DNA of 34,889 nt from Deltaproteobacteria bacterium (GTDB lineage: Bacteria; Bdellovibrionota_F; JAHFAK01), in contig JAHFAK010000010.1 in the NCBI GenBank assembly GCA_023250585.1, forward strand, positions 1 to 34,889, in the 5' to 3' direction. This document shows, in pieces, positions 3,373 through 34,889 of the stretch. Positions within the stretch are counted from its first letter, which is position 1. Every line of letters starts with the position of its first letter. The position numbers and the translations under genes were made by a program. The notes below the pieces were generated by a model that was given only the letters and a program-made list of their open reading frames with translations, had not been told where the DNA came from and searched no databases.

Positions 3373-4725
3373 TTATAACGAACGTATAATTCGTTTGATT
3401 TGATTTGTAAGATAAAAAGGTAGAGAAATTAATGTGTATGCATGGTCATCTGTCTTCACTGATTCAGTAATGGATGGGACATCATTATTAATTCTCACTG
3501 CAATCTTTTTCTTTTTTTCACCCATAAAAATATGTAATGACTTTAATCTCCCTGTTTTACCTGATTTAACTTCAATTGGTATGATTTCTGTACCCATGCT
3601 TATAACATAATCTACTTCAGCATTAGACGAGCTCTTTTCACGGACCCAGTAGAATAATTCTGGATTTTTATATTCTGGCTCCGCATATAAAAGATGCTGC
3701 CCTACAAATTGTTCGCTGATTTTCCCTTGATTGATCAATGTCAGATCTTTTGTTCGTTCCAGGTCTATGAGTGTTAACCCAGAGAGAGTTGTAAATAATC
3801 CAACATCAACAAAGAGAACTTTAAATATCGATTCATTAATTTGAGCGCGTAGAGGTATTCCGTTACTTGATGAATGATATATGTTATATGCAATTTTAGC
3901 ATTACAAAGCATGGATAAACTACCTGCAATATCTTTTGCTCGCACGCGAGGATCTATATTGGCATATTTGAATTTGTCGCCTACTACAAGCGGAATTTTC
4001 TTAAAAACAGTTCTCAATAAATCAACATTAACTTTCTTTGAATATTTTGAAAAATCATCTTCGTAGGTTAATAAGATATTATTTTTAATTTTATCACAGT
4101 CATTCAATGAATTTGTTTCCACATACCTTTTTATAACTGATGGCATTCCTCCTGTTATACAATAGAGTTTAACGAGTGAATTAAGCTTTTCGTGGATTGA
4201 TAACGGTATTGGTTCATCTAATGTATAACGTAAGAGATATTCATATACATTTTTCTCATGTACCGCTAAAAGAAATTCTTCAAAACTCATTGGCCCTAAA
4301 TGCAGATACTCTATTCTACCAACGGGCATCGAGAAGGTATGATCTTTTAAAATAAAATCTAAAAGCGATCCGGCTGCAATAATATGTAATAAAGGCATTT
4401 CTTCATAAAAATATCTCAGTTTTGCTAAAACTTCTCCCGCTGCTTGAATCTCATCTAAAAAAAGCAATGTTTCACCTGGTGTAATTTTTTGTCCATAGTG
4501 GATTTCGAGCAATTGAATTATTTTTTGAGGTGAGTTTGAAACAAAGAGTTCTTTTAGGTGAGAATCTTTCTCAAAATCAATGACGATCATATGTGAAAAA
4601 GATTGTTGCCCAAATTCTTTTACTAAATATGATTTCCCAATTTGTCGTGCCCCTCGAATGATCAGGGGCTTTCGGTCACTATTTATTTTCCAATTATTTA
4701 AATAAGTTAAACTTAATCTGTACAT
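3373..4725 (-). CDS. AAA family ATPase with C-terminal DUF4143 (restriction-endonuclease-like) domain
   Basis: RKPLIIRGARQIGKSYLVKEF (P-loop), LLFLDEIQAA (Walker B), AAGSLLDFIL, DYVISMGTEIIPIEVKSGKTGRLKSL. Likely start is the internal Met at 4725 (MYRLSLTYLNNW); the ORF extends to 4746. Confidence 0.88.
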   Translation of the reverse strand: MYRLSLTYLNNWKINSDRKPLIIRGARQIGKSYLVKEFGQQSFSHMIVIDFEKDSHLKELFVSNSPQKIIQLLEIHYGQKITPGETLLFLDEIQAAGEVLAKLRYFYEEMPLLHIIAAGSLLDFILKDHTFSMPVGRIEYLHLGPMSFEEFLLAVHEKNVYEYLLRYTLDEPIPLSIHEKLNSLVKLYCITGGMPSVIKRYVETNSLNDCDKIKNNILLTYEDDFSKYSKKVNVDLLRTVFKKIPLVVGDKFKYANIDPRVRAKDIAGSLSMLCNAKIAYNIYHSSSNGIPLRAQINESIFKVLFVDVGLFTTLSGLTLIDLERTKDLTLINQGKISEQFVGQHLLYAEPEYKNPELFYWVREKSSSNAEVDYVISMGTEIIPIEVKSGKTGRLKSLHIFMGEKKKKIAVRINNDVPSITESVKTDDHAYTLISLPFYLTNQIKRIIRSL

Positions 4726-4809
4726 AATAATACCTAATATTAGCATATTTTATGTTATTTTCAAGGGTTATTTTAATATATTTTATAATTTTTTATTGGG
4801 TAATAAATG

Positions 4810-4872
4810 CTAATCAATCTTCAAAATTTCGAGAAAAGCTTCTTGTGGAATTTCGACATTACACCGATATTT
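4810..4872 (-). pseudogene. Orphan, diverged duplicate of the lepA 3' end (about 20 codons plus stop, with a 2-bp frameshift)
   Basis: Reverse complement reads AAA AAT ATC GGT (gt) AAT GTC GAA ATT CCA CAA GAA GCT TTT CTC GAA ATT TTG AAG ATT GAT TAG = [20 protein letters not shown], the same peptide as the LepA C-terminus at 5632-5694. Confidence 0.95.
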
Positions 4873-4921
4873 TTTAGATATACAAACTCAACTTGATTTT
4901 GCTTGGAGAGACTATTACTCT

Positions 4922-5143
4922 ATGGTAACTCATATGGTAAAGAAATTTGAAAAAGAGTGGATTGATGATTTTGAAGCTGCACGAAGAAGAAGCTTAAAAG
5001 CAAGAATGGAGTATGCTTTTATTTATACATATAAACCGGTCTTAGATGATCAACCTTTTCGTTCTTTTACTACCATGAAAGAATACCGGAAATGGTGCGA
5101 AGAGAATCTACCATCGTGGCTTGGATATGGAAAAAGGCTTTAA
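4922..5143 (+). CDS. Small conserved-type protein, first gene of a two-gene cassette with a nucleotidyltransferase
   Basis: 73 aa (second Met at 4934: MVKKFEKEWIDDFEAARRRSLKARMEYAFIYTY...); overlaps the next ORF by 23 bp. Confidence 0.65.
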   Translation: MVTHMVKKFEKEWIDDFEAARRRSLKARMEYAFIYTYKPVLDDQPFRSFTTMKEYRKWCEENLPSWLGYGKRL

Positions 5144-5606
5144 TTATAAACAAGCGCAAGAAATTGCTCGTGTTTTCAAGAAATATCAGATTCATTATCT
5201 CTTTATTGGAAAATCGGGGGCAATCATTCTCGGTTTCCCAGATACAACACAAGATACAGACCTATTTGTTGAAAAATCTCTATCTAATTGCAAAGCTATT
5301 GTCAAAGCCTTGATTGAACTTGGCTTTCCATTAAAAGAAAAAGAACAACAAGAAATTACGAAAGGAAAGGACTTTATCCAAATTCGTGAAGGACCTTTTG
5401 ATTTAGATCTCATCTTTGCACCTGACGGAATCGAAACTTTTGAGGAGGCGTATCGTAGATCTTTAAATATCGAAGACCTACACGTTTGTCATATCGATGA
5501 TATAATCAAAAGCAAAGAGGCCACGGGAAGGATAAAAGATAAAGAATCTCTTCCGCGTATAAAAGCTTTTAGAGATTGGTGGATTAAGAATAAACAATCA
5601 TCTTAG
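5121..5606 (+). CDS. Nucleotidyltransferase-superfamily protein (MNT/AbiEii-like, putative TA component)
   Basis: HYLFIGKSGAIILGFPDTTQDTDLFVEKS and GPFDLDLIFAPDGIETFEEA resemble the G-S / DxD / third-Asp motifs of minimal nucleotidyltransferases. Confidence 0.75.
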   Translation: MDMEKGFNYKQAQEIARVFKKYQIHYLFIGKSGAIILGFPDTTQDTDLFVEKSLSNCKAIVKALIELGFPLKEKEQQEITKGKDFIQIREGPFDLDLIFAPDGIETFEEAYRRSLNIEDLHVCHIDDIIKSKEATGRIKDKESLPRIKAFRDWWIKNKQSS

Positions 5607-5631
5607 AAAAACAAAAAACAAGCGATTTTAT

Positions 5632-7419
5632 TTAATCAATCTTCAAGATTTCGAGAAAAGCCTCTTGCGGAATTTCGACGTTACCGATGTTTTTCATGCG
5701 CTTTTTGCCTTCTTTTTGTTTTTCAAGGAGTTTGCGTTTTCGGCTAATATCACCACCATAGCATTTTGCGGTGACGTTTTTTCGGAAGGGTTTAACGGTA
5801 TCACGTGATATGACTTTTGAACCTATTTTTGATTGAATAATTACTTCAAACATTTGACGTGGTATTACTTCACGCATGCGTTTGGTTAATTCGCGACCTT
5901 TATAGTAGGCCTTATCTTTATGAACAATTGCTGAAAGCGCATCGACGGGATTACCATTTATCATGATATCGAGTTTCACGAGTTTGTCTTCTTTGAATTC
6001 AAGAAATTCATAATCCATCGTCGCATATCCGCGAGAGATAGTTTTGAGTTTATCGTAAAATTCCATAATGATTTCATTCATGGGTAAATGATATTCGATA
6101 ATTACTCTGTTCGAAGAAAGATAATTCATCGCTTGTTGCGCGCCACGGCGTTCCTCGCAGAGTTTTAGAATCACTCCAACAAATTCTGCAGGTGTATGAA
6201 TAGTAACTTTATAGATGGGCTCTTCAATCTTTGCGATATGCTGTATATCGGGAAGTTTCGCTGGATTATCTATTTCCATAATTTTTCCGTTCAGGAGGAT
6301 AACCCGATAAATAACCGCAGGAGCAGTAATAATGAGATCAAGATTATATTCACGTTCAAGTCGTTCACGAACAATTTCCATATGAAGAATTCCTAAATAA
6401 CCTACGCGAAAACCAAAGCCTAAAGCTGTGGATGTTTCTTTTTCATAGGTAAAAGAGGAATCATTAATTGAAAGTTTTTCAATTGCCTCACAGAGATCTT
6501 CATATTTATTTGAATCAACGGGAAATATTGAGCTGAAAACCATTGGTTTCAATTCTTTAAATCCGGGCAATGCATGTGGTGTTTTTCTTTTAAAGTCAGT
6601 AACGGTATCGCCGATTTTTATATCACGGATATTTTTGATGCCTGCAACGAGATAACCTACCTCTCCTACTCCTAATTTAGTTGTTTCAATTGCTTCCGGT
6701 GAAAAATAGCCAATTTCTAAAGCTTCATATGTTTTTCCATGATGCATAAGATAGAGCTTTTGTCCTTTTTCAATTGAACCCTCAAAAATACGTATTAATG
6801 CGACTCCTCCACGATATGCATCAAACCAACTATCAAAAATAAGCGCTTTAAGCTCATTATCTGGAGAACCTTTGGGTGGAGGAATTACATCGATAATACG
6901 ATTGAATATTTCATCCATGCCCTGTCCTGTTTTTGCACTGACTTGTATAATTTCATCCGGCGAGCAACCCGTAACTTCAACAATTTCGCCTTTAACTTTT
7001 TCAGGATCTGAATTCGGGAGGTCTATTTTATTAATAACGGGAATAATCGCTAAATTATTTTCTACTGCCATGTAGAGATTGGCGAGTGTTTGTGCTTCAA
7101 CTCCTTGAGTTGCATCGACAACAAGTAAAACTCCCTCGCAGGCTTTTAAACTTCGTGAAACTTCATAACTAAAATCAACATGTCCGGGAGTATCAATTAA
7201 ATTGAGAATATAATCCTGGCCATCTTTCTTGTATGGTAGGCGAACGGTTTGTGCTTTGATTGTAATCCCTCGTTCGCGTTCAATATCCATTTTATCGAGG
7301 AATTGTGCCCTTTTTGTTCGGTCGTTCGTAAGCCCCGTGATCTCTAGAAAACGATCGGCAAGGGTAGATTTCCCATGGTCAATATGGGCAATAATAGAAA
7401 AATTACGTATGTTTTTCAT
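5632..7419 (-). CDS. lepA: Elongation factor 4 (LepA GTPase)
   Basis: [50 protein letters not shown], full length 595 aa. Confidence 0.98.
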
Positions 7420-18272: not shown

Positions 18273-18542
18273 TTATTTTCGTTTTTGTAATTCTTCTTGA
18301 TAGAATTTTTGATAGAGCACGTCCCATTCACTGCTTCCTTCAGGTAATGGACGGCTATATGAGGCAAGCTTTGCCCTGACTTTTTTATCAATAGCTTCAT
18401 CGTAGGATAAAGAGTTTGTGATTGACTGTTTAACGGTCCGTAATGTTATGGACATATCACTAACCGTAATAATTTTTTTCTTACATAAAGTATCAAGTAC
18501 GAGATGTGCGATATGACTTACACGGTCTTCTGAAAGAATCAT
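18273..18542 (-). CDS. DUF507 family protein
   Basis: MILSEDRVSHIAHLVLDTLCKKKIITVSD...VRAKLASYSRPLPEGSSEWDVLYQKFYQEELQKR. Confidence 0.85.
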   Translation of the reverse strand: MILSEDRVSHIAHLVLDTLCKKKIITVSDMSITLRTVKQSITNSLSYDEAIDKKVRAKLASYSRPLPEGSSEWDVLYQKFYQEELQKRK

Positions 18543-18820
18543 AAAATTATTCCCTTTTCTTTTGCCAATTGTTTTTTTGTAAGCTCAAACATTTTATGAT
18601 AATCGAGTTCTCCTGCTCTAAATTGTGGCTCATAAGGTTCAAGTACTTTTTTGACTGATTCCTCAAGTTTCATTTCTTCATCCATATTTTTTTGAATCGT
18701 TTCGCTTACTGCTGTAATAAAATTAGTTTGGCTTGCATGAATGTGTAGAAAACTTTTCCCTTGAAAATCTCGATATAATTTTTGCGCAATCTCTTCAATA
18801 TTGCTTTTTTTCAGTTTCAT
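18539..18820 (-). CDS. DUF507 family protein (tandem paralog)
   Basis: MKLKKSNIEEIAQKLYRDFQ...VKKVLEPYEPQFRAGELDYHKMFELTKKQLAKEKGIIL; 4-bp overlap with the next DUF507 gene. Confidence 0.85.
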   Translation of the reverse strand: MKLKKSNIEEIAQKLYRDFQGKSFLHIHASQTNFITAVSETIQKNMDEEMKLEESVKKVLEPYEPQFRAGELDYHKMFELTKKQLAKEKGIIL

Positions 18821-26792: not shown

Positions 26793-27515
26793 ATGGAATT
26801 ATTGTTATTTCTTTTTGGACTCATTTGGGGAAGTTTTTTGAATGTTTGTATTTTTCGTATTCCCGAAGAAAAATCAATTATCTGGCCACGATCACGATGT
26901 CGACACTGTAACAAAAATATTGTTTGGTATGATACTATTCCTTTGATCAGTTATCTGATTCTTTTGGGAAAATGCCGATTTTGTAAAAAAGGAATTTCTT
27001 CACAATACCCACTTGTAGAATTATTAACTGCAATTTTTATTATCATTACGTATCGTTCATTTGGTTTAACTTCACTATTTGGTGTCTATTATTTTTTTGT
27101 TTCTATCTTAATTGTTATTTCTTTTATTGATCTTCGTTTACGAATTATTCCCGATGTGCTTTCTTTAGGAGGCATTCCTCTTGGACTCATGTGCTCTTTA
27201 GTATTTAAAACCATTCCAATCAAAGATGCATTACTTGGGGCACTCATTGGTTTTGGTGTCCTATTTCTAATCTCAGTTATCTATGAAAAGATCACCAAAC
27301 GCGAAGGTATGGGTGGCGGCGATGTAAAACTCTTTTCTATGCTTGGTGCATTTTTGGGATATAAAGCACTTTTACCAGTCATGCTTATTGCGTCCCTCTC
27401 AGGTTTAATCGTTGGTGTTACGGTCATGATCATTAATAGATCAAATCTCAAACAAGCAATTCCTTTTGGGCCTTTTTTGGCGTTAGGTGCGATTGGGTAT
27501 TTGTTTTGGTTTTAA
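26793..27515 (+). CDS. pilD: Type IV prepilin peptidase / leader peptidase
   Basis: LIWGSFLNVCIFRIPEEKS, CRHC...CRFC zinc motif, FIDLRLRIIPD, REGMGGGDVKLFSMLGAFLGYKALL, IPFGPFLALGAIGYLFWF. Confidence 0.95.
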   Translation: MELLLFLFGLIWGSFLNVCIFRIPEEKSIIWPRSRCRHCNKNIVWYDTIPLISYLILLGKCRFCKKGISSQYPLVELLTAIFIIITYRSFGLTSLFGVYYFFVSILIVISFIDLRLRIIPDVLSLGGIPLGLMCSLVFKTIPIKDALLGALIGFGVLFLISVIYEKITKREGMGGGDVKLFSMLGAFLGYKALLPVMLIASLSGLIVGVTVMIINRSNLKQAIPFGPFLALGAIGYLFWF

Positions 27516-27547: not shown

Positions 27548-27808
27548 TTAATTATTATTGCCATTTTTAGAAATTATTTTGTAATAGAGGGTCTCAGGAG
27601 CAATATCGGCACCGTTTGGCCAAGCTATTGTTCCTCCTTCAATGAGAGCTTTTTTAAAAAATTGTACGTCTTTGAGTGCTTCAAAGATTGGACCTTTTCC
27701 CAAATAATCTGAAAAATCTACATCTCCTTTGGAGCCATCATCAAATATAATATGGTATATATATTCTTTTTTATATTTAATTGTAGTTACTTCGTTCATA
27801 TTCCACAT
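27548..27808 (-). CDS. DUF2442 family protein (putative TA-like component)
   Basis: [75 protein letters not shown]. Confidence 0.88.
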
Positions 27809-27817
27809 ATTTTTACC

Positions 27818-28078
27818 TCATGATAAGGGTTCAATGTTCTGCATTTCTTTCCCTAATCGTGCCAAATTCCAATCATTTTTGAGTTCATTAACATGAAGAT
27901 CTATCCACTCGCGGACCAGTTTAATAGCAGTTCTTGATTTCAAATCTCCTTTCAATATATTACCTTGAAAATCAAAAACAGCTTTATTTCCTTGATACTC
28001 AGCATGAAAATGAGGAGGGTTATGCTCATCATAAAACATACGGATTATTACTCCAAAAAATCTTGATATTATTGGCAT
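27818..28078 (-). CDS. DUF4160 family protein (putative TA-like component)
   Basis: MPIISRFFGVIIRMFYDEHNPPHFHAEYQGNKAVFDFQGNILKGDLKSRTAIKLVREWIDLHVNELKNDWNLA; Met at 28078 is the likely start (ORF to 28108). Confidence 0.88.
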   Translation of the reverse strand: MPIISRFFGVIIRMFYDEHNPPHFHAEYQGNKAVFDFQGNILKGDLKSRTAIKLVREWIDLHVNELKNDWNLARLGKEMQNIEPLS

Positions 28079-28130
28079 ACTTTTCTCTCTTTTTTGATAA
28101 TAAACCATAAACTATTTTTTCCTTCAAGAT

Positions 28131-28194
28131 AATTTCCTTCGGTCCTTTTTTGGCATTAGGAGCAATTGGGTATTTGTTTTGGTTTTGGTTTTGA
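28131..28194 (+). pseudogene. Orphan, diverged duplicate of the pilD 3' end (19 codons plus stop)
   Basis: TCC TTC GGT CCT TTT TTG GCA TTA GGA GCA ATT GGG TAT TTG TTT TGG TTT TGG TTT TGA (preceded by ATT) = (I)SFGPFLALGAIGYLFWFWF* versus IPFGPFLALGAIGYLFWF* at the end of pilD (27459-27515). Confidence 0.95.
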
Positions 28195-28197
28195 TTC

Positions 28198-31100
28198 TTA
28201 CCACCATTTTCGTTCGGGTAGTTCGGGAAGTTCAAGGGAAATATTGAGTTTTTTAAAAAATTCTTTCATACGTTTTGTATTTTCAATAAACCGCGAATCT
28301 TGGGTTCCATTTTGATTCCATAAACCCCACTGTAGATAGGCTGTATGAAAATAATTCTTGAGTGCGTTCGCGAGTTCGGGATTGAGTAATTGCTTATAGA
28401 TTTCAACCAGCGAAAGAATGAGATCAAGAAACTTTTGTGCCATGCCTTGATCATAATCGACAACGAGAGCATTTCTAGCTGCTCCTAGAAGCGAAATAAG
28501 GGCAGTTCGATCGAGAGATCCATTGCTGGCACATCCTTCATAATAATCATAGAGCATACTATAGGCAGTAGTAGCAACAGGATCTTTAATGTTGCCTTTT
28601 GCTTCAGTCTGTATGTCTATCCGACTTAGGGTATGACTCAAAAACTTTTCAGCATTTTTAAGTGTTTCTTCATTACTTCCATAAATCGCTCCAAAGTCAT
28701 TGTAATATGCTGCAAGCCAAAAAAAGAAATTCAATCGCGTTTCAAATTTCATTGTATCGCTTAAAGCCGTGAAGATAGTAAGATAGTCCTCTTGATTTTT
28801 TGCCGTAGCATAGTGTGCAACCATTAAAATAAATCGTTTTCCTTCATCGAAAAGTTCTGATTGATTGAGATCCCCTGTAGTTATTATTTCTTTCAACTCT
28901 CGCGCTATTGTTAGCGCCATATCCGAATCATTGATTGCATAATAGGGTATCACTATAAGTATAAGATCCAAAAGCCTTGGAATAATCGAACGTTCATCGT
29001 TGGAAAAGCGTGCTACTCCTTTCGCTTCTTTAAGTAAGGTGAAAAGATAGTCACGGGATGGAATTTTTTTCTCATGCAAGAAATGCAATCCTAAAAGCGT
29101 CTTCACATGAATCCAATTAATAATCATCCGTCGACTCCGTGTTTTTTCAAGGGTTGTAATGAGCAGTGGGATACACTGCTTACTGTAGACAGCGAAACTT
29201 TCAGTATAGAATGTACGGAAAGTTTTTTCAAAAACATCATTAGGCATTTTCCTGATTTGGTCCTCAAATGGTTCGTCTCCACCAGGGATATGAAAGATGT
29301 CACTAATAATCGTTAAGTAAACATTACCGACGCTTTTAAGAATCTCTATAAGGTCATTTTTAATTTTATCAGGAGTCTTACTCCGCAATGCCTGATCAAT
29401 ATCGAGATAAAAATACGTAAACCGTTCACAGAGTTCATTCGTTGGAGTGAAATTACGTGCCTCCATGAGAGATTTAGATTTTTGTAAAAACTCTATCGCT
29501 CCTATGGGATCAAAGACTTGCCAATCAGCATAGCGAAGCACCTCACTCGAAACAACGTCAGCTTCTTTACCTACAAGCTTTTGAGCTTTATGCCGAGCTG
29601 CTGTATCGATGGGTTTCATCGTTGTATCTACCGTAGCTTCTTTTTTAATAAGACTTGTATCTATCTCAATATGGGAAGGTTTTATGAGATGCTCACCAAG
29701 GTCAGTATTCTGCTGGTCCTGAAGGTGATCGTATCGACTCTTTCTAAATTCAGATACCTTATCATTAATAAAATTATCAACTCGTGATTGATACTGGGGG
29801 TTAGGATTGAAATTCTTTAGTTCTTTAATTGCTGCTTCATATTCTGGGTATATTGTTGTTTTGAGATCACTCGTATCTGAATCAATTCGTAAGTAGTCAT
29901 GTGGTATCGGCATACGTACACTAATATTGGCCCAATATTTATCCAATAATTTGTCCATTACAGGGTACTCTTCAATATCAACAATTGTGAGTACATCGCT
30001 GAGCTCTTTTGTCGTCCAGCTACGTATACCAAAACAACGATCGAACATTGACAAAAATGCCTTACGAATAAATGAAGACAATTCTTTACCAAGATCATTC
30101 TTTGATAAAACAAAACCAATAGTAAAGAGAGTATCAAAATCATCTCCAAGACATTCAGAATTTTTGAAGAGTTTCTCTAAATCTTTCTTAAAAGTTTCAA
30201 CAAGAAGTATATCTAATTCACTCGCTGGTTTTGATTTGGTAATCGTATTTTTGAACAGTTGTTTAAAATCACTGACAGTAAGATCTTGAGGAAATCCCTG
30301 TCGACCATATTTCTTAATGTAGTAATTTGTCCATAGAGGATAACGATAAACCCCAACGAGATAATTATTCCACAATTTCTCTTCTGAGTTTTTCTTTTGA
30401 GCTTCTACAAGAAGCTTAAAAGTATTCTTACTTATAATATCTAAAAAGACTTCGCTAATGGCATATCCTTCTGTCTCAAATGTGCTAAGACCGTCTAATA
30501 GAAATGCAAGATGGGAAAGTTTGAATTGGTTATCAATCCATTTTTCTAAAATATTTCTGTACTCATTGGCATTTCCTAAAAAACTTCGTGGGGGTATTTT
30601 GTAGATACTATCTCCAATTTTTTCTTTCGTTGGGAAATAATGATCAATAGGTGAATCAGCTATAAGAATACTTCCATCTTTTTTTTGAATTTCTATATCA
30701 GAAGGAACGAGCATATGAAGGATAACTTGACGCACATCAGAACAACGAGTTATTTCTTTAATAACCCTTTGATACGTTAAAAAATCGATTGATGAATCAG
30801 CAAGTAATTCTTTTAAATTATTAAATAACTTTAATAGATTTATTTGGTCTGTTTCTTCGCACATTTGGCTTTTTATATTTCTCACTAATTCGCTTTCATC
30901 TGCTTCTTTATTGCGGGTGCGTTCTTCTTCGGTACCTTTATTAGTATTCCACTCTCGACCTTTTTTATTTGCCCAATTAAATAATTCGGGTAGTCCAAAA
31001 GTCCATGAATCTTTCCCAGAACCTGATTCATTTCCTGTGCCACTGCCATCCCCCTTCCCTTCTCCATTTCCATAATTCGGTGCAATGCCTTTTTCTTCAA

Positions 31101-34100
31101 GTTCTGCGTACGGAGTTGCATCAAAAGTAACCCAATGATCTCCAATAAGTACTTCACTCCATGCATGACCATCATTCGCAGGATCAATGACTTTATAGTT
31201 TTCGTCATATTTTTTTGAATATTTATACCCAGCATTTGTTTTTCGTGGATCTGATGCATACCCGGTTACCATACGCGCAGGTAATCCAAATTCGTGGCGG
31301 ACAATATATTGAAAGAGTGCGTTTCCTTCAGCGCAGTTTGCTAACCGATTATTGGCAATCTTTTCTAGCTTCTTTCCCCAATCAGGAATTTTCGTCGGAT
31401 CATCGAGTGTGATTTTATTGATCGGAGTTCCAACATGGTTATACGTCACATGCAATTGAATCCATGATTCAAGAGGTCGGAGGAGATATACCTCCTCAAT
31501 ACTCGAATGATCTCCTGGGAGCAACGGAAATTTACTAAAATTAGTATGATCAAATGCCTGTCGAATAAATTCATCCCATTTTTCTTGACCATATACAAAA
31601 GGTTCCTCTTTATTTACATATTCATTCCAAACACGAAAGAGTTCTTGTGTAAAACCTCTCACACTTGGCTCAATAAAAGTTTTATCCAGATGATCAGTAC
31701 GATAGTATTTCCGTAATTCCTCCCATTTTTCTTCTGTTTCATTCTGTATCTGAACCATTTTAGTGTTTATAATTGATGCTACTAGATATTCTTTATTCCG
31801 GTTTATAAGGAGAGATATAGGAGAATCATCTTGTCTTAAGATCCCACTAGCTGTATAAAAATAACCTTCAGAAGGAATAAGAGCTAAATCAACACCTGCT
31901 GGAGGAAAGATTCTGATGCCTTTCAAACCTCCCCCATCACGAACAAAAGTTTCGTTAATATTTTGAAGATTTTTAATCGGTACAAAATATTTTCCATCAC
32001 TTGAATGAAAACGTTCACGAATAAAACGCTTAGATTCTAATTGAGGTTGATAGAAGTAATAATCGCTCGATTCTTCTTCTTTATTTTTTCCTTTCGATCC
32101 ACCCTCTTTTCCACCAAAAAGTCCTGATAATGTATCGAAAATATTTGAATCTTCTTGTGCACTTTTTGGTTCGTAATTTTTTCTTTTGTTCTCAGGAAGA
32201 CTCATAAAAAGTTTTTCGATTTTTATGAGATCAGCAGGACTATCGGTGAGTTCATATTTAATAAATTCAGGGTCTTGTTGGATCTCCACAAAACCAAGAA
32301 TTATCAACTCACGTTTCAGGTACGAAATAAAACTTGGATCTTCAAAGAGATCTTTATGTTCAAGGATTAAAAGTTTCTCAAGCTCTTTACGATATTCATC
32401 TTTAGTTAAACTTTTGAGTTCATGAAGAATCTTAATCCATACAAAACGGGCATGATCATCGAGTTTTTCTTTGTGCCATTTCTTATCGGGATCGATCGTC
32501 GAAAGAAGTTTTACGAGGTCCACTTCTTTCGTTTCAAGAATCTTTTTTAGTTCTTGGAGCGTATCAATCGAAAACGAATCTAAGTGAGGAGTGATATGTT
32601 TTTCGTCGAGAAAAGAGAGAATTGTTTTTGTTTGCTTCGCTTCAAAAGTCTCGGCCTTGTATTCCTTTTCCCAGTAGGTGAAGCGTTCTTGTATTTTAGT
32701 AATGACATAGAGCCGTCGTAAAGATTCAAGCCGTGTTCCATTGACTTTTAGATGAGCCAATGCAAAATCTGCCGGCACATCTTCATAACCAAGAAGCTTA
32801 AAACTCTCAGTAATTTTTTCAATAAGAACAGAATCTTTTGCACATTGCTCGAGCGGTTTTTTGAGAACTTCTTTTTCTAAAATCGTTTGATATACTTCAT
32901 TGGATATTTTTTGATATCGATGCTGTAACTCCAAAAGGACATATCGTTCAAGAGGAGAAGCACTGTTCATGTTGAGTATTTGAGCATCGACTTTAGAAAA
33001 TATAACATCAAGATAATCACTAATATCCTTTTGAATCAGTTCATAGAGTTTTTCGAGAAGTTCTATGGGGAAATGTTTTCGCTCTTCAAAAATTCGTGTA
33101 AAAAGCTCTCGCAAGATTTGAGCCTCAGCTTGATAATATGAAGACTCAGAAGCTACTAACTCTTTCAAATGCTCTTCTTCAAAATGAGTAAGAAGATCTG
33201 AAAGCCATGATGTATAAATTTCATTGAGATCTTTAGAATTCTGTGCATGTTCAAGTACATACTCTGAAGGCATTGGATAGGTAAAAAATGATTGAAGTTT
33301 TACGCTTGCTTCTTTATGAAAAAAAACTAATTCATGTGAACTCACTTTCTTGTGTAATAATTCATGATAGACATAGCGATAGAAGAGTGTTTTTACGATT
33401 TCTTTTTTTGTATCAGTACCGAGAAGTTCTTCAATGACAAAAAGATCGCTCAACGGATGAGACGTGAGATGATCCTTTGCTTGTAATTCTTCTTCGGTAT
33501 AGAGAATTCGAATCGTTTGAATCTTTTCAAAATCAGTTGCCGTCAGGTACTGGGACAGTTTGGTTAATTCGTTATACGTTAATTTTTCAATATTGGGCAG
33601 TAGATGATCACTCAGTAATTCAATTTGTTTCTGGGCTCGATATTTTTTCACCCATGAATCATGGTCTTTTGGAGTATCAATTAAAAATTGATTATAATAT
33701 TCAATTGCTGCACGAATATGTTTTTCAATCTCCATAATACGTTGGGTGAGTTCATCGTAGTGGATATTTTCTTCGTTCTTATCTTTCGAGATTAATGCAG
33801 ATGACTCATGAGCAATTTCTAAAGTATCTAAATCTTTGAGTGCTTCTTCGGGAAGATCGGCAGCAATGTGAGCGAGTTCCATGACAAGCTCATCGAGTCG
33901 GTATTCCGTACCCACTAAATATGAGCGATAATCTTCAATATTCCCTCGATGGGCATCTTCGTGTTCATAAAGCTTTGCTAAACTTTTCGCTGAACGAGCC
34001 GTCGCATCGGTTGCTAGATCAAGATACGGGAGTCGATGAAAAACGAAATTATTAAAAATAGGAGTTTCATTCTTTTTTTTCTTCAGTTTCTCTTTTCTGA

Positions 34101-34889
34101 CTATTTCTGCCGCTTGATGAAATGATTCAAGAGCAAGCGACAAATAACCTGTAGATAATGATGGATGGTTCTGCGAAACATGAGCTAATCGATAAAATGT
34201 TCTGCCATAGACGATCCATCCATCATATTCGAGTGCCGGATCTTTATATGTATACATTTTTCTCAGATTATCGATATGATTATTAAGAATATCTCTTTTT
34301 TCTTTGGCTGTCTTTGATGATACGCTTGTACCAGCTACTCCTGCATCTGCGGTAAATAGAAAACTCTGCTCGAGCGCATATGAATACCAGGTGTCATTTC
34401 TATCATGATTATGGAGAATGTCGGCTAAGGAATGATAGGACTCGCATATTTCTTCTTGTTCATCATACGCTTGCCTAACAAAGGTGATATAACAACTCCA
34501 CTGCATGGCACGTAAAAGAATATCGCAATATTCCACATATGGCTGACTCAGCGAAAATTGCCAGAAGCGTTTATTCGTAATGATTTTTCTGTCTTTAACA
34601 TTACAAAGAGATGAAAAAGATTCGGTTACTGTGTGTACGTCGAGTGCAATAGGAATAAAATCATCATTTTTTATATTTTTCTTCAAAGCCTCAAATAAGG
34701 CATGAAAACTTTGGGCAACATTATGATCTGTACCTTGTAAGAGTTTTGTAATTACCCGTTCGCTTTCTTCGAGTGAAAGATAATCATCTATAGCAAAAAT
34801 TTCTTTAGGTAATGGATGAAAAGTTTCCTGAGATGCTATGGCTTCAGCGCTTATCAAAAGCTGTGCAAGCAAAATAATACGAGAGGATA
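28198..34889 (-). CDS. Giant secreted transglutaminase-core domain protein (5' end outside window)
   Basis: RLANCAEGNALFQYIVRHEFGLPARMVTGYASD...DGHAWSEVLIGDHWVTFDATPYAE carries the C/H/D triad context of the transglutaminase core; frame stays open past the TTG at 34872 to the window edge (SSRIILLAQLLISAEAIASQ, signal-peptide-like). Confidence 0.9.
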   Translation of the reverse strand, partial: SSRIILLAQLLISAEAIASQETFHPLPKEIFAIDDYLSLEESERVITKLLQGTDHNVAQSFHALFEALKKNIKNDDFIPIALDVHTVTESFSSLCNVKDRKIITNKRFWQFSLSQPYVEYCDILLRAMQWSCYITFVRQAYDEQEEICESYHSLADILHNHDRNDTWYSYALEQSFLFTADAGVAGTSVSSKTAKEKRDILNNHIDNLRKMYTYKDPALEYDGWIVYGRTFYRLAHVSQNHPSLSTGYLSLALESFHQAAEIVRKEKLKKKKNETPIFNNFVFHRLPYLDLATDATARSAKSLAKLYEHEDAHRGNIEDYRSYLVGTEYRLDELVMELAHIAADLPEEALKDLDTLEIAHESSALISKDKNEENIHYDELTQRIMEIEKHIRAAIEYYNQFLIDTPKDHDSWVKKYRAQKQIELLSDHLLPNIEKLTYNELTKLSQYLTATDFEKIQTIRILYTEEELQAKDHLTSHPLSDLFVIEELLGTDTKKEIVKTLFYRYVYHELLHKKVSSHELVFFHKEASVKLQSFFTYPMPSEYVLEHAQNSKDLNEIYTSWLSDLLTHFEEEHLKELVASESSYYQAEAQILRELFTRIFEERKHFPIELLEKLYELIQKDISDYLDVIFSKVDAQILNMNSASPLERYVLLELQHRYQKISNEVYQTILEKEVLKKPLEQCAKDSVLIEKITESFKLLGYEDVPADFALAHLKVNGTRLESLRRLYVITKIQERFTYWEKEYKAETFEAKQTKTILSFLDEKHITPHLDSFSIDTLQELKKILETKEVDLVKLLSTIDPDKKWHKEKLDDHARFVWIKILHELKSLTKDEYRKELEKLLILEHKDLFEDPSFISYLKRELIILGFVEIQQDPEFIKYELTDSPADLIKIEKLFMSLPENKRKNYEPKSAQEDSNIFDTLSGLFGGKEGGSKGKNKEEESSDYYFYQPQLESKRFIRERFHSSDGKYFVPIKNLQNINETFVRDGGGLKGIRIFPPAGVDLALIPSEGYFYTASGILRQDDSPISLLINRNKEYLVASIINTKMVQIQNETEEKWEELRKYYRTDHLDKTFIEPSVRGFTQELFRVWNEYVNKEEPFVYGQEKWDEFIRQAFDHTNFSKFPLLPGDHSSIEEVYLLRPLESWIQLHVTYNHVGTPINKITLDDPTKIPDWGKKLEKIANNRLANCAEGNALFQYIVRHEFGLPARMVTGYASDPRKTNAGYKYSKKYDENYKVIDPANDGHAWSEVLIGDHWVTFDATPYAELEEKGIAPNYGNGEGKGDGSGTGNESGSGKDSWTFGLPELFNWANKKGREWNTNKGTEEERTRNKEADESELVRNIKSQMCEETDQINLLKLFNNLKELLADSSIDFLTYQRVIKEITRCSDVRQVILHMLVPSDIEIQKKDGSILIADSPIDHYFPTKEKIGDSIYKIPPRSFLGNANEYRNILEKWIDNQFKLSHLAFLLDGLSTFETEGYAISEVFLDIISKNTFKLLVEAQKKNSEEKLWNNYLVGVYRYPLWTNYYIKKYGRQGFPQDLTVSDFKQLFKNTITKSKPASELDILLVETFKKDLEKLFKNSECLGDDFDTLFTIGFVLSKNDLGKELSSFIRKAFLSMFDRCFGIRSWTTKELSDVLTIVDIEEYPVMDKLLDKYWANISVRMPIPHDYLRIDSDTSDLKTTIYPEYEAAIKELKNFNPNPQYQSRVDNFINDKVSEFRKSRYDHLQDQQNTDLGEHLIKPSHIEIDTSLIKKEATVDTTMKPIDTAARHKAQKLVGKEADVVSSEVLRYADWQVFDPIGAIEFLQKSKSLMEARNFTPTNELCERFTYFYLDIDQALRSKTPDKIKNDLIEILKSVGNVYLTIISDIFHIPGGDEPFEDQIRKMPNDVFEKTFRTFYTESFAVYSKQCIPLLITTLEKTRSRRMIINWIHVKTLLGLHFLHEKKIPSRDYLFTLLKEAKGVARFSNDERSIIPRLLDLILIVIPYYAINDSDMALTIARELKEIITTGDLNQSELFDEGKRFILMVAHYATAKNQEDYLTIFTALSDTMKFETRLNFFFWLAAYYNDFGAIYGSNEETLKNAEKFLSHTLSRIDIQTEAKGNIKDPVATTAYSMLYDYYEGCASNGSLDRTALISLLGAARNALVVDYDQGMAQKFLDLILSLVEIYKQLLNPELANALKNYFHTAYLQWGLWNQNGTQDSRFIENTKRMKEFFKKLNISLELPELPERKWW

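Follow-up and report, generated by a model that had tools for sequence, protein, structure and literature searches.

Toxin–antitoxin and related genes between diverged copies of gene ends suggest homologous insertion in a Deltaproteobacteria genome

Results

In the sampled genome of a Deltaproteobacteria bacterium (assembly GCA_023250585.1), eight gene ends are present in two copies with cargo genes between them: the ends of pilD, lepA, nrdB, hppA, rpsG, dapA and an acetyltransferase gene, and the head of uvrA. The copies in the six clearest pairs differ mostly at synonymous sites. The best explanation, which we consider probable, is that DNA of a related lineage, with its own version of the gene end, was inserted by homologous recombination, probably through a single crossover.

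The window, the whole stretch of 34,889 nucleotides of contig JAHFAK010000010.1 that was analysed, contains an intact pilD gene encoding a prepilin peptidase of 240 aa (positions 26793-27515, forward strand; Pfam A24_N_bact, E = 1e-33, and Peptidase_A24, E = 4e-24). The tail of this gene (27458-27513) recurs as a direct repeat at 28131-28186, on the same strand and with a spacing of 673: the copies are 56 nt long and 88% identical, with a blastn E value of about 1e-12. The downstream copy is an orphan tail (28131-28194) that stays open to a TGA at 28192-28194. Positions 28123-28194 translate to FKIISFGPFLALGAIGYLFWFWF followed by a stop, while the intact pilD ends in AIPFGPFLALGAIGYLFWF followed by a stop. 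A search with the 60-aa pilD tail recovered the orphan at E = 5e-6, and the match is therefore not a chance one. A role of the orphan as a functional terminator or promoter was unsupported when checked.

Between the two copies there are only two small adjacent genes, both on the reverse strand and with the toxin gene first: a DUF4160 protein similar to the toxin DhiT (27818-28108; Pfam DUF4160, E = 6e-20) and a DUF2442 protein similar to the antitoxin DhiA (27548-27808; Pfam DUF2442, E = 2e-16). DUF4160 and DUF2442 proteins form an experimentally tested toxin–antitoxin pair, dhiTA (PMC8198452). The type II dhiTA system of Dickeya dadantii shares with the cassette both the pair of domains and the order of a DUF4160 toxin gene followed by a DUF2442 antitoxin gene (PMC8198452), although the matches of the cassette proteins to the corresponding NCBIfam models are under the equivalog cut-offs (DhiT, E = 4e-14 and 52.9 of 100 bits; DhiA, 29.9 of 200 bits). 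We predict from these domain matches that the cassette is a DhiTA-type toxin–antitoxin pair. Neither an integrase nor a transposase was found among the open reading frames and Pfam matches of the cassette.

On its far side the orphan faces a convergent gene on the reverse strand (28198-34887), a 2229-aa open frame with a Transglut_core domain according to the ORF list and Pfam, which reaches the window edge and has no relative among the other 20 genomes searched. The stops of the orphan and of this gene are 3 bp apart. The original prediction was right about the repeat, the stops and their coordinates, and it took the tight stop-to-stop junction as a sign that the downstream tail is the ancestral one. 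The junction is not diagnostic of polarity: among 94 convergent gene pairs in the genome the median spacing is 15.5 bp, and 16% of the pairs lie within 0-10 bp. As convergent genes here are usually close, both the 3-bp junction and the 32-bp spacing between pilD and the convergent DUF2442 gene are ordinary.

The same anatomy is found in the window at lepA (5632-7419, reverse strand). Self-comparison places the tail of the intact gene at 5633-5694, and an orphan tail of 64 bp, 89% identical to it, lies on the same strand at 4811-4874. The forward strand between them (4922-5606) carries a small open reading frame (4922-5143) and a second one (5121-5606) that looks nucleotidyltransferase-like by eye; neither has a Pfam match. 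All five coding differences between the lepA copies are synonymous, and the orphan carries a 3-bp insertion. An AAA_14/DUF4143-type ATPase gene (3373-4746) adjoins the lepA duplication (4811-5694). Elsewhere in the window, a DUF507 protein at 18273-18820 is encoded by two adjacent ORFs that each match one half of the family, by either a natural split or a frameshift.

We surveyed gene ends by self-comparison of the other DUF4160 loci of this genome and about 0.7 Mb of its sequence. The repeats cover the head (5' end) of uvrA (234 bp, 94% identical) and the ends of nrdB (94 bp, 95%), hppA (138 bp, 96%), rpsG (75 bp, 93%), dapA (56 bp, 80%) and the acetyltransferase-like gene (115 bp, 85%). At each of the eight sites the repeat is the end of the target gene itself, and length (56-234 bp), sequence and identity (80-96%) differ from site to site. 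The junctions compared have no evident motif in common. Whole-gene tandem duplication with later erosion is unlikely, as only short ends are repeated at eight unrelated genes. The nrdB gene itself (L048:7692-8726) encodes a protein about 80% identical to Patescibacteria homologues, which suggests that it may have been acquired horizontally.

The cargo consists of a DUF4160/DUF2442 pair at three sites, a nucleotidyltransferase/HEPN pair at one, a Fic protein at one, AAA_14/DUF4143 ATPases at two (one with a HicA gene) and an unclassified pair, nucleotidyltransferase-like by eye, at one, which is an apparent enrichment in addictive cargo. The scanned cargo proteins of the other sites had no transposase or integrase match. 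The genome (G000, 2.24 Mb) has an unusual load of 34 DUF4143 matches. Only 2 of 29 scored DUF4143 loci have a flanking repeat in their short flanks, so insertion at gene ends is not the sole route by which such genes arrive.

Four of the eight cases (hppA, rpsG, dapA and the acetyltransferase gene) come from stretches chosen without regard to toxin–antitoxin content. When these stretches (613 kb) were put through a stricter automatic screen, hppA, rpsG and dapA were found again, together with a tRNA pair (L082) and a pair of pilin paralogues (L055), the latter two being excluded as ordinary. The acetyltransferase gene was missed by the screen because a contig end cuts it and leaves it under the ORF length limit. 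High-copy direct repeats, present 4-36 times in the sample, were treated as interspersed families and not counted, except where they contained a gene end, as with nrdB. Such families, with units of about 50-130 bp and up to 36 copies in 0.7 Mb, occur in L046, L047, L065, L068, L107 and other stretches of this genome.

In other phyla, 15 of 62 DUF4160 loci sit between copies of a direct repeat with an identity of 78% or more and a distance of up to 1.5 kb. Other positions of these loci give an expectation of 3.3, and none of 5000 draws exceeded 9. The count does not reflect a single cause: many of the repeats do not code for protein, and at least one is a member of an interspersed family. Coding examples include an acyl-CoA dehydrogenase-like tail (L124) and a 252-bp tail (L161), in both of which the concentration of differences at third positions is weaker than in the genome of the window. 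One contig (L177:2726-5681, genome G021) holds three copies of a repeat that has no others in that genome, with DUF4160 separating the first copy from the second and other small genes separating the second from the third, an arrangement that serial insertion into a single site would produce. The sampled stretches of two other genomes yielded few gene-end cases; the single G063 case has a nucleotidyltransferase-like gene and its small partner between the copies.

The copies of the pilD tail differ at 7 of 56 aligned bases, six of them at third codon positions and one at a first, which amounts to five synonymous codon changes and one P to S. Summed over the six clearest pairs of this genome, 30 aligned coding differences fall on codon positions 1, 2 and 3 as 2, 1 and 27, with 26 synonymous and 3 nonsynonymous codon changes; the acetyltransferase pair was left out as more diverged (15 differences, 5/3/7). 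If third positions were to receive a share of 0.5 or 0.6 of the changes in one neutrally drifting copy, both shares being assumed values, the probability of 27 or more out of 30 would be 4e-6 or 3e-4, respectively. Judged by this pattern, both copies diverged mostly while coding and look like two alleles that each evolved as a working gene end. The bias also argues that the copies are not a decayed target-site duplication. The P to S change of the pilD orphan is at a family-conserved residue in a comparison of tails, and the uvrA orphan has a G to V change at a residue conserved in its family. These two of the three nonsynonymous changes, together with the insertion in lepA, fit a slight later decay of the orphans.

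Whatever the insertion model, the downstream copy should have a native outermost end, and the upstream copy should have received its cassette-side end from the insert. To this extent the geometry agrees with the original prediction that the downstream pilD tail is the native one and that the tail now fused to pilD is foreign. The prediction does not carry over to the variable sites, whose ownership depends on the crossover. These sites precede a block of 22 identical bp at the 3' end of the repeat, and a crossover inside this block would make the variable part native in the upstream copy and foreign in the orphan, contrary to the prediction. At L161, which serves as a proxy from another phylum, eight relatives could be aligned, which are distant and share ancestry; seven of them score higher with the orphan tail than with the intact one, and the eighth scores equally with both. 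This leans toward a native downstream copy. A cassette-free or close relative was not found with pilD over 59 genomes, in contig scans with pilD and NrdB (the latter returning mainly Patescibacteria) or in a search with the giant gene, so both the polarity and the donor are only what we infer.

Discussion

In the explanation that we favour, a piece of DNA from a related lineage would have carried a DhiTA-type cassette together with that lineage's own pilD tail. The tail common to donor and recipient would then be the site of RecA-type homologous recombination, in the simplest case a single crossover with the fragment in circular form. The product would consist of the native pilD body, the donor tail, the cassette and the native tail beside its native neighbour, so that pilD remains intact while its former tail becomes the orphan. 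Inserts flanked by repeats would be prone to loss, which addictive cargo would resist; this would account for the toxin–antitoxin or defence-like genes in the surviving ones. The layout, its recurrence in this genome and the synonymous divergence of the copies are what the sequence shows; the single crossover, circularisation, the part of RecA, a relative as donor and retention by addiction are steps that we infer, and the model assumes an uptake route for the organism, natural transformation or other.

Experiments in Escherichia coli provide a precedent. Linear DNA with homology on one side entered mostly by a RecA-dependent single crossover after circularisation, and sequenced clones had a duplication of 109-950 bp of the homologous end (PMC3240628). 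A single crossover of circularised DNA with one-sided homology would thus give the observed layout without any mobility gene. After Campbell-type integration in that system the insert is likewise flanked by direct repeats of the homologous end, but the homology there, in laboratory plasmids, was identical over about 1 kb (PMC3240628), whereas the repeats described here are shorter and diverged. At 56-234 bp they offer little length for RecA to recombine diverged DNA efficiently, which speaks against our explanation.

The nearest rival to a single crossover is transformation-driven merodiploidy, which we regard as possible though clearly less probable. A linear donor would pair by homology on the pilD side only, and its other end would be attached by an illegitimate join inside the native tail, through homology-facilitated illegitimate recombination or merodiploid formation in transformation; the end product would be the same, with the whole orphan native. 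This rival predicts the same structure and the same synonymous divergence and agrees with the junctions, which lack an evident common motif, and duplications are made by transformation in pneumococcus (PMC3784515). Against it, the illegitimate route usually deletes recipient DNA instead of duplicating it (PMC3240628). The excess of third-position differences is incompatible with one freely drifting copy, and it makes a transposon-like cassette with long, later decayed target-site duplications improbable, even though long variable target duplications (order of 100 bp) are described at restriction–modification genes that apparently move without linkage to a known mobile element (PMC3874152). Such a cassette would also have to move without a transposase and join without an evident motif.

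Still less credible is a site-specific integrase that acts in trans at gene ends, with the repeats as attachment sites and a replacement tail supplied by the element. Integrative elements at gene 3' ends do restore the target gene and leave the leftover tail at the far side, and the inserts described here share with them both the complete, reconstituted gene end and the far-side orphan. They differ in that the pilD cassette has no integrase, no common attachment core is found, and the repeats are diverged, locus-specific and unlike in sequence and length at eight unrelated genes, one of them at a 5' end (uvrA). An assembly artefact, in which cassette-bearing and cassette-free strains of a mixed bin were merged into a single contig that kept both tails, is also very improbable. 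The assembly is a draft of 164 contigs with an estimated contamination of 1.1%, and the tails do resemble strain alleles. On the other hand, both cassette genes look complete and lie well inside the 34.9-kb contig, other loci are alike, and a genome of only four contigs from elsewhere in the domain has, inside a contig of 2.2 Mb, a comparable repeat of a gene head (46 bp, 96%) on either side of two nucleotidyltransferase-like paired genes.

As far as the accounts in PMC1643837 and PMC3874152 describe it, insertion with long target duplication places restriction–modification genes between long variable repeats, and empty sites were seen in H. pylori (Nobusato et al. 2000; Furuta et al. 2010, as cited there). 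The gene-end insertions match this type in being small addictive units without a known mobility gene between long variable target repeats of the order of 100 bp (56 bp at pilD, 56-234 bp at the other seven sites). In contrast to those accounts, the cargo here comprises toxin–antitoxin and related (Fic, AAA_14) genes, not restriction–modification genes, and the copies are synonymously diverged alleles, with one target gene end intact.

The movement of stand-alone chromosomal toxin–antitoxin genes without mobility genes is poorly understood, and the gene-end alleles described here bear on that question. We know of no settled mechanism for the long target duplications of restriction–modification genes either; the synonymously diverged copies point to homologous entry of a relative's DNA, not to transposition. 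It is conceivable, and we propose it tentatively, that toxin–antitoxin pairs in general spread as mobile units that need no integrase: they would carry a neighbour's gene end, enter by host recombination and be retained by addiction. If this is true, conserved gene ends would be docking sites common to lineages.
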